Position numbers and translations under genes: made by a program
Source: Gemmatimonadota bacterium
GTDB lineage: Bacteria > Latescibacterota > UBA2968 > UBA8231
Direction of reading: 5' to 3'
DNA: 6,631 nucleotides
Assembly: GCA_002712305.1 (NCBI GenBank)
Contig: PATE01000099.1
Span: 1-6,631, forward strand
Shown: one piece after another, positions 2,850 through 6,432 of the stretch
Position numbering within the stretch: the stretch's first letter is position 1
Layout: each line of letters starts with the position of its first letter
Notes under the pieces: generated by a model
Databases searched by the model: none
Seen by the model: the letters and a program-made list of their open reading frames with translations, nothing else
What the model was told of the DNA's origin: nothing

Positions 2850-3158
2850 CTATTCAGGTGCGCCCATCTCACGCAACCGATCGATCTCATGATCCGTCAC
2901 TAAGGGCCGGTGCGTGCCGTTAGGCGGCATGCGACCGGCACGTCGTTGCAAGCAAACCCAGCGGTGCGAGATCTTCGAAACCCGGCTGAGCAGTTCGAGA
3001 CCGATCGGCTTGGCCAGGTAGCCATCGGCTCCCAGGGCCCGGACGATGTCCTCGTAGGCGCCGGGACCAGCAACCCCGCCCCCGGAAATCACGAGGACCT
3101 TCAGAGGGTGATTCTGTTTGATCTCTCTGAGCGTCTCGATTGCGGTACCTCGACCCAG
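2850..3158 (-). pseudogene. Response-regulator receiver (REC/CheY-like) domain, C-terminal half only
   Basis: The frame follows a TAG at 3161-3159 and codes 102 residues. AIETLREIKQNHPLKVLVISGGG matches alpha 3 to beta 4 of receiver domains, including the conserved Ser/Thr (S25 in VISGGG). RALGADGYLAKPIGLELL matches alpha 4 to beta 5 with the conserved Lys-Pro, and SRVSKI starts alpha 5. The first half of the fold, which carries the acidic pair and the phospho-accepting Asp, should lie just upstream, but the sequence there hits the stop and no receiver-like residues appear in any minus-strand frame up to about 3350. The only candidate start codons are internal (GTG at 3092-3090 falls in beta 4), so no functional domain can be made. 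A 38-residue tail with an Arg/Cys-rich stretch and TDHEIDRLREMGAPE ends at TAG 2852-2850. This is most simply a remnant of a two-component or chemotaxis-type regulator gene. Confidence 0.7.
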
Positions 3159-3344: not shown

Positions 3345-4607
3345 ATGACATCTGATGCGACCCCATCGCAACGCGAGCGGGCACGCTTCGGCGCCGAATC
3401 ACAGAAGGGTCTTGGAGGCGATCTGCCGCAGCCCTTCCCCCGACAGATCGGCCCCAGGGCGATGGAGTATCTGGCCGAGGTCGTCGAATCGGGTCTCACG
3501 TGCGACATGGTGGGACGCTTCGAGCAAGCCTTTGCCGCGTCCCATGGCGTGAAGCATTGCATCGCCACACCCGGTTGCACACCGGCCCTGGCGGTGCTGG
3601 CGGCCGCTTTCGACTTCGAGCCAGGGGATGAGGTCATCGTCAGCTCGGTCACGGACTTCGGTACCGTGCAGGGGCTGATCAACGCCGGATACATCCCCGT
3701 CTTTGCCGACACACAGCCCGGCACCATCAACATCGGTCCCGATACGATCGAAGCCTGTATCTCGGATCGCACTCGTGCGATCCTGATCGTGCACATGACG
3801 GGGCTGATCTGCGACATGGACCCGATCACCGAGCTGGCCCGGCGGCACGACCTGGTGGTGTACGAGGATGCCTGCCAGGCCATCTTCGGTCGCTACAAGG
3901 GCCGCTGGGCGGGGAGCCTGTCGACGGCGGGTGCGTTCTCCTTCGATTCGGAGAAGACGATGGGCTCCGACGTGGGGGGCTGCATTCTCACCGATGACGA
4001 TGAGCTGGCCGAGCGTGCTCGCTTCGTCGGTCAGAGCCGCGGTGGCGAGATGGTCGAGCACTTCGGCCGTGTCCACCGGGTCAACGGATTCGCTCACCGT
4101 ATGACGCAGTCCACGGCGGCGATCACACTGGCGCAGCTCGACATCATCCAGCCGCAGGTGGCCCACATCGACCGGATGATCCGCCTGCTGCATCAGCTGC
4201 TCGACGAGATCCCCGGCATTTCGGCTCTGCCGATCCCCGACACGGTGGATGTCTATTCCTGTTGGATGGCCGGCTTTCTGATCGATCCGGAGCAGTTTTC
4301 CTGTGACACCGAGCAATTCGCGGCGCGCGTGGCGGCCGCCGGTATACCCGGCGCCGGGCAGGCGCGCTACTACCTGTTGCCGGCTGCTCTGCCCTATCTC
4401 AGCGAGGCGGCTCAACAGCTCAGATTTCCCTACTCGCAGCCACCGGCAACACGCACGTATCGATACGACGGCGATAGTTGCCCTGAAGCTCAGGCGTTGC
4501 TGGAACGCTACATCCGGTGGAGCACCTTCTGCGAGCGATACGAGCCCCATCACTGCGAACAGGCGGCTCACATCGTGAGAGCCGTGGCAGAGCAGGTGAG
4601 GCGATGA
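3345..4607 (+). CDS. DegT/DnrJ/EryC1/StrS-family PLP-dependent aminotransferase
   Basis: This 420-residue fold-type I aminotransferase transfers an amino group, usually from glutamate or glutamine, to a keto or aldehyde carbon of a sugar, cyclitol or similar compound. Landmarks: the phosphate-binding turn ATPGCTPAL (74-82), GDEVIVSS (94-101), VFADTQPGTINI (119-130), the cofactor-binding Asp in YEDACQA (173-179, D175), and the Schiff-base Lys K204 in SFDSEKTMGSDVGG. The usual GEGG after the lysine is replaced by SDVGG. The EDACQA...YKG...FSFD..KT spacing resembles, from memory, the branch containing 8-amino-3,8-dideoxyoctulosonate transaminase (KdnA) more than the TDP-sugar branch, but no kdnB or nucleotide-sugar gene is visible nearby. 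The length is normal, with a long C-terminal region (about 340-420) containing CERYEPHHCEQ. It is the first gene of the operon, and its TGA (4605-4607) overlaps the ATG of the next gene. The specific substrate is unknown. Confidence 0.9.
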   Translation: MTSDATPSQRERARFGAESQKGLGGDLPQPFPRQIGPRAMEYLAEVVESGLTCDMVGRFEQAFAASHGVKHCIATPGCTPALAVLAAAFDFEPGDEVIVSSVTDFGTVQGLINAGYIPVFADTQPGTINIGPDTIEACISDRTRAILIVHMTGLICDMDPITELARRHDLVVYEDACQAIFGRYKGRWAGSLSTAGAFSFDSEKTMGSDVGGCILTDDDELAERARFVGQSRGGEMVEHFGRVHRVNGFAHRMTQSTAAITLAQLDIIQPQVAHIDRMIRLLHQLLDEIPGISALPIPDTVDVYSCWMAGFLIDPEQFSCDTEQFAARVAAAGIPGAGQARYYLLPAALPYLSEAAQQLRFPYSQPPATRTYRYDGDSCPEAQALLERYIRWSTFCERYEPHHCEQAAHIVRAVAEQVRR

Positions 4608-5404
4608 GCGCTGGAGGAAACCCGGCGGAGGACGCGGTGATCTGCCTGCCGTCCCGGTACTACAGGGCCCTGCCGATCGATGATCCGGGCTACGAAGAGG
4701 AGACGCTGGAGCTGCCGCTGGCCTCGACAGCACTGGTGGGAATGCACTGCTGGAACATCGGCTGCCCGGATGGCCCGGCCATCGATGTCGACTTCTGCGT
4801 CGGGGCGGGGTGGCCTCAGTCCACGCGGGAGGCGGCCCGCATCATGGCTGAGGTGGTCCGCCCGTCGATGGATCTGGCGCGGCGCGTCGGCCTGCGGATC
4901 GTCCACGTGGAAACCGACTGGATGGACACACAGTATCCGCACGTGGAGTCTCGGCGATCCTCGGCGCCGGCGGAGATGCACCCGCACCAGCGTGCCATGC
5001 TGGAGCGGGCCCACGGTATCGACTACATGACTCGGTCGCCGCTGGCGAGCATGCGGCGTGCCGAGCTGGTGTCACCGCAAGGGGAGGAGCCCCTCTTCTT
5101 CTACTCCGACACGCTGGACGAGGATCTGCGGCGCCACGGTATCGGTACCCTCATCTACATGGGCTTCATGACCGACATGTGCATTCTAGCGGCAGAGGGG
5201 GGAGCCCGCCAGATGGTGGCCCGTGGCTACCGCTGCGTCCTCATGCGCGACGCGACGGTGGGGGTGGAAACGCCCGAATCCTACCCCGATCGTCTGGCCA
5301 CTCGCTATGGCACCCACATCTTCGAGTGGAGTCTCGGACACAGCACCCGTTTCGAGCAGTTTCAGGCGGCGATCGCCGCAACCCGGGAGCGAGACCCGTC
5401 ATGA
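4604..5404 (+). CDS. Isochorismatase-fold (cysteine hydrolase superfamily) protein with atypical active site
   Basis: This 266-residue protein has the alpha/beta isochorismatase-like fold, shared with nicotinamidases, N-carbamoylsarcosine amidases, RutB and biuret hydrolases. Landmarks: first strand TALVGMHCWN (42-51), GLRIVHVETDW (96-106), TLDEDLRRHGIGTLIYMGFMTDMC (170-193) with nucleophile C193, then ARGYRCVLMRDATVG (206-220). The normal catalytic triad is Asp-Lys-Cys. By position the Asp of the usual DxQ motif is replaced by H48, and no lysine is seen in the stretch before FFYSDTLDED where the Lys normally sits. So either chemistry differs or it binds rather than cleaves. A 40-residue N-terminal extension precedes the first strand. 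The start at 4604 (ATGA overlap with the aminotransferase stop, AGGTGAGG just upstream) is preferred over the open frame back to 4517, which lies inside the aminotransferase gene. Its own TGA overlaps the next start. Amidase-type hydrolysis of a small molecule is the family-based guess. Confidence 0.85.
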   Translation: MSAGGNPAEDAVICLPSRYYRALPIDDPGYEEETLELPLASTALVGMHCWNIGCPDGPAIDVDFCVGAGWPQSTREAARIMAEVVRPSMDLARRVGLRIVHVETDWMDTQYPHVESRRSSAPAEMHPHQRAMLERAHGIDYMTRSPLASMRRAELVSPQGEEPLFFYSDTLDEDLRRHGIGTLIYMGFMTDMCILAAEGGARQMVARGYRCVLMRDATVGVETPESYPDRLATRYGTHIFEWSLGHSTRFEQFQAAIAATRERDPS

Positions 5405-6432
5405 GTCAGGACATGAGCCCGAGGGCAGGTCTGACCGTCTGCCCCTGGAAGTACGGCAAGCGCTGGGTCTACTCGATCACCTACGACGAGGCGCTGGCCG
5501 ATCTGAATCGCTTCGCCCTTCCGCTCCACGAGGAGTTCGCCATCCCCGGGCACGTGGAGCTGCTGGTGGGGCAGATGGGGCAGATACGCCAGGCCGGCAA
5601 TTCCAGCTACAATGGCATGCGCCACATGAATGCTCAGGAGCTGCGCGATCTGCTGGCGCTAGGCTGGGGGGTCGGCAATCACTCGTGGACGCATCAGGTC
5701 ATCACGCCCGAGATGGTCGAAGAGGAAATTGGCCATGCCAAGCGCGTGTTGGAGGAAGCCATCGGCGAGCCGATCATCCTCTTCTGCTCGCCGGGGGACA
5801 ACACGAATATGGCCCAGCACGTCCTTGAGGCGTGTCGGGCCCACGGATACCTGGGCGCGATGAGTCTGACGGACGCCCTCAATCGGCCGACAGACGAGCT
5901 CTTCTGGATCAACCGCACCGCGTTGCACGAGCAGTACTACGCGCCCTTCTTCAGCGAATACGATCCCTACCGCAACCTCCGTCAGGCCCACCAGGTGCAG
6001 GGCTGGCTTATAGACTACTGCCACTGTCCGCTGGAGACAGCCGTACACCCGAACAAGGACTGCACCCAGGCACAGTTGCGGCAGCGCTTCGAGACGGTGT
6101 TGTCGGAGGGTGGTGATGCAGTCTGGTGCGCGGTGCCCGAAGAAGTGCTCAGCTATCACCTGATGCGACGCCATGCCCAGATCGAAATACTCGATGAGTC
6201 CACCGACGAGCACCGCTACCGGATCGACCTGCCCCACCTGCCGGAGCAGGTGCCCTATCGTGCGCTCACCCTCGAGCTTCACGTGCCGGCCGCCTGGTGT
6301 CGCGATCCGCTGGTCGAGATCGGGGCGCAGTCGGTGCCGGCAGAGCTGGTGCGACCGGGTGTCGTGCGGGTGACCTCGCAGGTGACGGACGGTACGTGTG
6401 TGCGGGTGGCGGCCACGCCCCGTCGAGTCTGA
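5401..6432 (+). CDS. Polysaccharide deacetylase-like (NodB/CE4 fold) protein with variant motifs
   Basis: This 343-residue NodB-homology protein resembles carbohydrate esterase 4 enzymes, which remove N- or O-acyl groups using a divalent metal; the same fold includes PuuE-type allantoinases. Motif 1 appears as SITYDEALAD (25-34): D29 is the expected base, and E30 replaces the usual metal-binding Asp. Motif 2 is intact as NHSWTH (93-98, H94 and H98 as ligands). Motif 3 is FCSPGDNTN (128-136) instead of an Arg-Pro-Pro-Tyr type. A late histidine, H208 in DYCHCPLE, fits motif 5. A WCAVPEEVLSYHLMRR segment (242-257) closes the barrel, and residues about 260-343 form a beta-rich C-terminal domain. 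There is no signal peptide or membrane segment, so it is probably cytoplasmic, unlike cell-wall deacetylases. The start at 5401 gives an ATGA overlap with the preceding stop, with GGGAG 11 bases upstream; M5 at 5413 is an alternative. It is the last gene of the operon. A cytoplasmic small-molecule amidase is as likely as a polysaccharide enzyme. Confidence 0.85.
   Translation: MSQDMSPRAGLTVCPWKYGKRWVYSITYDEALADLNRFALPLHEEFAIPGHVELLVGQMGQIRQAGNSSYNGMRHMNAQELRDLLALGWGVGNHSWTHQVITPEMVEEEIGHAKRVLEEAIGEPIILFCSPGDNTNMAQHVLEACRAHGYLGAMSLTDALNRPTDELFWINRTALHEQYYAPFFSEYDPYRNLRQAHQVQGWLIDYCHCPLETAVHPNKDCTQAQLRQRFETVLSEGGDAVWCAVPEEVLSYHLMRRHAQIEILDESTDEHRYRIDLPHLPEQVPYRALTLELHVPAAWCRDPLVEIGAQSVPAELVRPGVVRVTSQVTDGTCVRVAATPRRV

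Follow-up and report, generated by a model that had tools for sequence, protein, structure and literature searches.

ArnB and ArnD, of the arn (pmr) operon, form a known pair of a DegT-family aminotransferase and a NodB-fold enzyme, and NIT2 is an omega-amidase. Canonical CE4 deacetylases of the NodB fold are defined by a tandem Asp in motif MT1, a His pair in MT2, and an Arg in MT3 (PMC10967932). The structures 3rxz, 1z7a, 3qbu, and 3s6o represent a NodB1.2 subclass, with which PuuE (3cl6) has been compared; PuuE and HP0310 are small-substrate proteins, and the class has been argued to fall partly outside the polysaccharide deacetylases (PMC10967932, PMC3084791). Here, we analyzed a three-gene locus in a 6,631-base stretch of DNA (the window) that makes up the beginning of an 11,888-base contig in a 4.77-Mb draft genome, whose relatives are labeled Candidatus Latescibacterota or, by other naming, Gemmatimonadetes. 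The locus encodes a pyridoxal phosphate (PLP)-dependent DegT-family aminotransferase (DegT), an isochorismatase-fold hydrolase (Isoc), and a NodB-fold protein (NodB). Comparison across genomes showed that a conserved DegT-NodB pair, fused in one case, travels with an exchangeable amidase-type partner, which is either Isoc or a nitrilase-superfamily carbon-nitrogen hydrolase (CNH).

A conserved DegT-NodB pair with an exchangeable partner

Genes in related genomes and at the loci described below were called with a codon-model caller, later seeded on the trio; a single locus (L035) was placed by tblastn coordinates. In ∼30 of 40 related genomes, close orthologues of the three genes adjoin, with DegT first, Isoc second, and NodB last. 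Among the variants, one group has a C45-family hydrolase and an acetyl-xylan-esterase-like hydrolase inserted between DegT and Isoc, another has a protein without a Pfam match between Isoc and NodB, and one lineage carries a pair of tandem NodB genes. Several Latescibacterota also carry a second, diverged copy of the trio with two tandem NodB genes (L045 and L086-L095).

To sample more widely, genome-collection contigs were scanned with the NodB alignment, and the window was combined with the best 80 of 118 matches. DegT lies beside NodB in 72 of these 81 loci, a set that under-represents more distant loci, which may lack DegT: 50 loci have DegT and Isoc, 20 have DegT and CNH, and 2 have DegT with neither. 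The rarer types are CNH without DegT (four loci), Isoc without DegT (three), and none of these genes (two); at L121, DegT is missing from the locus yet is encoded elsewhere in the genome. Isoc fills the amidase slot at 53 loci and CNH at 24, and the two were never observed together (0/81). By NCBI labels, the loci span more than 10 named phyla: Latescibacterota, Gemmatimonadota (probably mislabeled Latescibacterota), Handelsmaniibacteriota, Zixiibacteriota, Armatimonadota, Chloroflexota, Hydrogenedentota, Omnitrophota, Planctomycetota, Verrucomicrobiota, Fidelibacterota, and Bacillota. The mutual exclusivity of Isoc and CNH in part follows phylogeny, but the NodB tree still requires at least four amidase switches, and both states are found inside Armatimonadota and inside Latescibacterota.

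The pairing of DegT with NodB is also evident in an Opitutaceae genome, which encodes a natural NodB-DegT fusion of 735 amino acids (L100, 9995-12199), and among 120 genomes of Anaerolineae, where the specific DegT is present in five and NodB in six, with all five DegT genomes within those six (Fisher P = 3e-8, phylogeny ignored). Because the orthologues adjoin in most relatives and DegT accompanies NodB at most of the multi-phylum loci, linkage of the trio is far beyond chance. Thus, we conclude that the DegT-NodB pair is the core of the module and that its amidase slot can be filled by either partner. A preliminary description of this DNA had treated exactly these three families as the unit, to be doubted if no other genome kept them together; the trio is indeed kept elsewhere, but what is conserved is the pair plus an exchangeable slot.

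The coordinates, families, and two ATGA junctions reported in that description were borne out by open reading frames, Pfam matches, and AlphaFold models (Table 1). Tight coupling of the genes is conserved, and ATGA overlaps are common yet not universal: a spacing of −4 was observed at 18 of 42 DegT>Isoc junctions and 9 of 43 Isoc>NodB junctions of the relatives, most of the remainder lying within 20 bases. Since the spacing varies in this way, the strict co-expression and equal protein amounts previously read from the overlaps do not follow from them.

Table 1. Positions of the trio genes and their junctions in the window
Feature	Coordinates	Strand	Basis	Role
DegT/DnrJ/EryC1/StrS-family PLP aminotransferase, 420 aa	3345..4607	+	PF01041, orthologue alignment	Core member
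Isochorismatase-fold (Isoc) cysteine hydrolase, 266 aa	4604..5404	+	PF00857, BiuH 6xjm alignment, AlphaFold	Amidase-slot member
NodB-fold amidohydrolase/de-N-acylase, 343 aa	5401..6432	+	PF01522, 35-sequence alignment, AlphaFold	Core member
ATGA stop/start overlap, DegT>Isoc	4604..4607	+	Sequence	
ATGA stop/start overlap, Isoc>NodB	5401..5404	+	Sequence	

Protein families and predicted active sites

The Pfam match is strong for DegT (PF01041, 233 bits against a cut-off of 19.8) and passes by a weak margin for Isoc (PF00857, 41.9 against 27) and NodB (PF01522, 29.9 against 23.1). Predicted structures of high confidence (mean pLDDT of 93.4 for Isoc and 91.3 for NodB) support the folds of these two weaker assignments. 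None of the three passes any of the specific family models tested.

DegT can be placed in its family by the PF01041 match and a putative PLP lysine, K204, within FSFDSEKT; E174-D175 is also present. Its orthologues are 55 to 81% identical, with K204, D175, and Q178 invariant in 13 of them. None of the named DegT equivalogs in NCBIfam (ArnB, WecE, PseC, LegC family) was reached, the best score being 151 bits against 375.

NodB begins with MSQDMSPRAGLTVCPWKYGK... and, by inspection, has no hydrophobic signal peptide, as the preliminary description had noted. It consists of a catalytic domain of ∼255 amino acids and a C-terminal beta domain, which is absent from short orthologues. The recognizable motifs are D29-E30, H94xxxH98, and DYCHCP...H..KD, and residues invariant in 35/35 sequences are T27-[YF]28-D29-E30, R63, H94, H98, and R172, followed by D205-Y206, H208-C209-P210, H216, and K219-D220. 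Judged by these motifs, NodB does not appear to be a canonical CE4 deacetylase: the MT1 tandem Asp is replaced by Asp-Glu (D29-E30, 35/35), the MT2 His pair (H94/H98) is retained, and the MT3 Arg is not at the PGxN stretch in the alignment, although an Arg could be supplied from elsewhere.

The PF01522 match and the resemblance of the model to NodB structures place the protein in the NodB-fold superfamily. Distances were measured as Z-scores of the predicted model, with matches within 1 Z unit counted as tied. The top match is a haloarchaeal virus turret protein (Z = 21.5), followed by 3rxz, 4dwe, 1z7a, PuuE 3cl6, HP0310 3qbu, and 3s6o (Z = 19.0 to 20.2 over 208 to 219 residues); most CE4 enzymes lie at Z = 15 to 17.6 and ArnD lies at 16.9. 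Among characterized proteins, the NodB model is thus closest to the small-molecule NodB1.2 group, including PuuE allantoinase and HP0310, with ArnD further away. NCBIfam gave no match for NodB, and the window locus is not among the matches of TIGR03212, the PuuE family model. The plain label of polysaccharide deacetylase was dropped on account of the NodB1.2-like fold and the missing signal peptide.

For Isoc, the PF00857 match and the modeled fold are those of the isochorismatase-like hydrolase superfamily. The model is nearest to RutB (Z = 22.2 to 23.0; the best match, at 23.0, has an rmsd of 2.7 over 196 residues) and is also close to the biuret hydrolase BiuH and the triuret hydrolase TrtA, all three falling at Z of ∼20 to 23. 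On the other hand, scores against the NCBIfam equivalogs miss the cut-offs more than 10-fold (27 against 370 bits for biuret hydrolase and 25 against 378 for RutB), and the canonical Asp-Lys-Cys triad is not intact. His48 replaces the catalytic Asp of the superfamily in 29/29 orthologues, while Cys193 is kept in 29/29; H101, E162, and W50 are further invariant residues. The catalytic Lys is lost: the window protein is free of lysine, and the position aligned with the BiuH (6xjm) lysine is variable. Since Isoc keeps only the Cys of the canonical triad, its activity is not to be assumed. In an Anaerolineae genome, a diverged Isoc is present twice next to DegT (L131), and both copies likewise carry His; isochorismatase-fold paralogues in the window genome carry Asp at this position. 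The paralogues at L007 (8748-10661) and L008 (8791-9555) keep the catalytic Asp and have no obvious Lys, and one such pair has a single small gene in between.

CNH has the PF00795 nitrilase fold, unrelated to that of Isoc, and its catalytic triad, E46-K112-C148, is intact in 24/24 sequences. Its best PDB match is NIT2 (E = 2.4e-28), and among NCBIfam models it scores with deaminated-glutathione amidase, all scores against nitrilase-family models being far under the equivalog cut-offs.

Gene surroundings and candidate pathways

Carbohydrate ABC permeases, together with solute-binding proteins, flank 15 of the 24 CNH loci in several phyla; the earlier statement that transporter genes are lacking holds at the window locus but not at these loci. 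Gfo/Idh-type dehydrogenases, APH-like kinases, and, as judged by sequence, a LacI-type regulator recur around the loci, as do other amide hydrolases (creatininase-family, C45, M55, and M20 proteins and an AXE1-like esterase). In Latescibacterota, a DUF4962/heparinase-like gene is convergent to NodB in 15 loci, including that of the window genome. There, a frame at 6443-8920 on the minus strand (L006), reaching the window end, encodes a DUF4962/heparinase-like protein with a laminin-G-like region and contains ambiguous bases. These surroundings hint at import and breakdown of an amide derived from a glycan or sugar, with differences between lineages; because the neighborhood outside the trio is highly variable, the hints about the substrate are weak.

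We favor, with a probability of roughly 0.4, a cytoplasmic route, encoded by co-transcribed genes, in which an imported amino sugar or aminocyclitol loses an amine as well as N-acyl or amide groups. The cell would take up a small compound of this kind, N-acylated or carbamoylated, with a sugar ABC transporter serving in several lineages. NodB, with D29/E30, H94, and H98 as metal ligands, would remove an N-acyl group or open a cyclic amide; the amidase would then cut a second amide or carbamoyl bond, in Isoc via Cys193 activated by His48, a Cys-His pair replacing the usual Asp-Lys-Cys triad. Finally, DegT, with PLP on K204, would pass the freed amine to 2-oxoglutarate, yielding a keto compound on which general sugar oxidoreductases could act. 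If so, the module would be, just as tentatively, an undescribed catabolic or salvage pathway, patchily distributed over many phyla, in which NodB and DegT act one after the other and the amidase step is handled by either of two unrelated folds, that of the Cys-His Isoc being one.

Several observations weigh against this route. Its substrate, product, and direction are all ones that we infer; DegT enzymes are known mostly from biosynthesis; and one lineage (g4) has nucleotidyltransferase and GHMP kinase genes upstream, which would fit biosynthesis. Sugar transporters are found chiefly beside CNH-type loci rather than beside the window's own trio, and the genes outside the trio vary greatly between lineages. 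With Asp and Lys gone, Isoc may catalyze something besides amide hydrolysis, and most of the genomes are metagenome assemblies. The previously suggested cytoplasmic conversion of an amide- and amine-bearing small molecule fits the structural neighbors (RutB and BiuH; the PuuE group), but the part assigned to Isoc cannot be taken for granted.

The main rival, which we consider rather unlikely, is biosynthetic amination with glutamine as the donor: DegT would leave 2-oxoglutaramate, the amidase would be an omega-amidase pulling the reaction forward, and NodB would deacetylate another amine, yielding an amino or diamino sugar or cyclitol. An amidase that clears 2-oxoglutaramate would explain why unrelated folds swap in the slot or why it is empty, and the NIT2 and deaminated-glutathione amidase matches of CNH, the g4 loci, and the listing of some DegT relatives in the PDB as glutamine-dependent all point the same way. 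However, CNH scores far under the equivalog cut-offs, Isoc resembles ureido hydrolases rather than omega-amidases, and the lineages have in common neither a glycosyltransferase nor an NDP-sugar pathway, whereas importers do recur.

Breakdown of a cyclic ureide or imide, like reductive pyrimidine catabolism, is less probable still. NodB would open the ring, Isoc or CNH would remove the carbamoyl group, and the aminotransferase would take the amine, as suggested by structural and sequence neighbors that open rings (PuuE) or remove carbamoyl groups (RutB, BiuH, TrtA, carbamoylputrescine amidase, and ureidopropionase). Yet PuuE is without metal ligands that are retained in NodB, the PuuE model leaves NodB unmatched, sugars or cyclitols are the usual substrates of DegT enzymes, and no purine or pyrimidine genes were recognized nearby. 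Purine (allantoin) catabolism, brought to mind by an additional M20 peptidase and class-V aminotransferase at Caldilineaceae loci, was dropped: in NCBIfam the former is nearer to DapE/ArgE deacylases and the latter to cysteine-desulfurase-like proteins, not to allantoate amidohydrolase and ureidoglycine aminotransferase.

It seems very improbable that DegT and NodB follow an Arn-like route, with DegT in the role of ArnB, producing an amino sugar, and NodB in that of ArnD, removing its formyl or acyl group; ArnD is among the structural matches of NodB but is further from it than the PuuE group, and DegT scores 141 bits against an ArnB cut-off of 631. Accidental adjacency of unrelated genes, for which one could cite the dense gene packing usual in bacteria, is already refuted by the multi-phylum conservation, the fusion, and the mutually exclusive replacement of the amidases.

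Other frames noted in the window lie on the minus strand. An NAD-dependent epimerase-like frame at the contig start (3-563) apparently skips from its N-terminal Rossmann portion straight to a C-terminal one, as though a central segment had been deleted. A Cys-rich zinc-ribbon-like protein (883-1515) has no significant family match and a weak one to the EDR4 zinc ribbon. An enolase-superfamily sugar-acid dehydratase (1476-2621) scores just under the galactonate dehydratase cut-off (281 against 311 bits), and a short frame (2850-3092) resembles, by eye, a C-terminal piece of a CheY-like receiver domain and is possibly a gene remnant.

Comparison with described systems

The families of the components are known, but neither the module nor the His/Cys active site of Isoc appears to have been described. 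In the open-licence literature searched, on the family combinations, glutamine/omega-amidase clusters, and PuuE, we found no account of this gene set and no characterized operon or pathway of such composition, in agreement with the preliminary description; absence there is weak evidence. The module gives three poorly annotated families a shared, testable context in the little-studied Latescibacterota, Hydrogenedentota, and Caldilineaceae, in which the current labels "polysaccharide deacetylase," "isochorismatase," and "sugar aminotransferase" are contradicted or unsupported by the evidence presented here. The swap of unrelated amidases permits comparison of function without knowledge of the substrate, and a His/Cys site in an isochorismatase fold poses a clear question for enzymology.

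Isoc shares with RutB, BiuH, and TrtA, the best structural matches of its model, the fold and the nucleophile Cys, but it is only ∼15 to 21% identical to them and differs in its His for the catalytic Asp and in the loss of the catalytic Lys. CNH resembles the NIT2-type hydrolases (omega-amidase and deaminated glutathione amidase) in fold and in its intact Glu-Lys-Cys triad; these enzymes are not homologous to the window Isoc, and CNH stays below all of the equivalog cut-offs. With PuuE, HP0310, and other NodB1.2 proteins, which are among the closest solved structures (Z of ∼19 to 20), the window NodB shares a NodB fold without a signal peptide at ∼11 to 18% identity. It has an extra C-terminal domain, leaves TIGR03212 unmatched, and retains the D-E...HxxxH metal motif that has been lost in PuuE (PMC10967932).

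The arn operon likewise combines a DegT aminotransferase and a NodB-fold de-N-acylase in one pathway. It needs ArnA, ArnC, and ArnT, none of which was recognized among neighboring genes at the loci examined (the whole genome was not searched for them), and the window DegT falls far below the ArnB model. Unlike arn, the module described here has an amidase slot.

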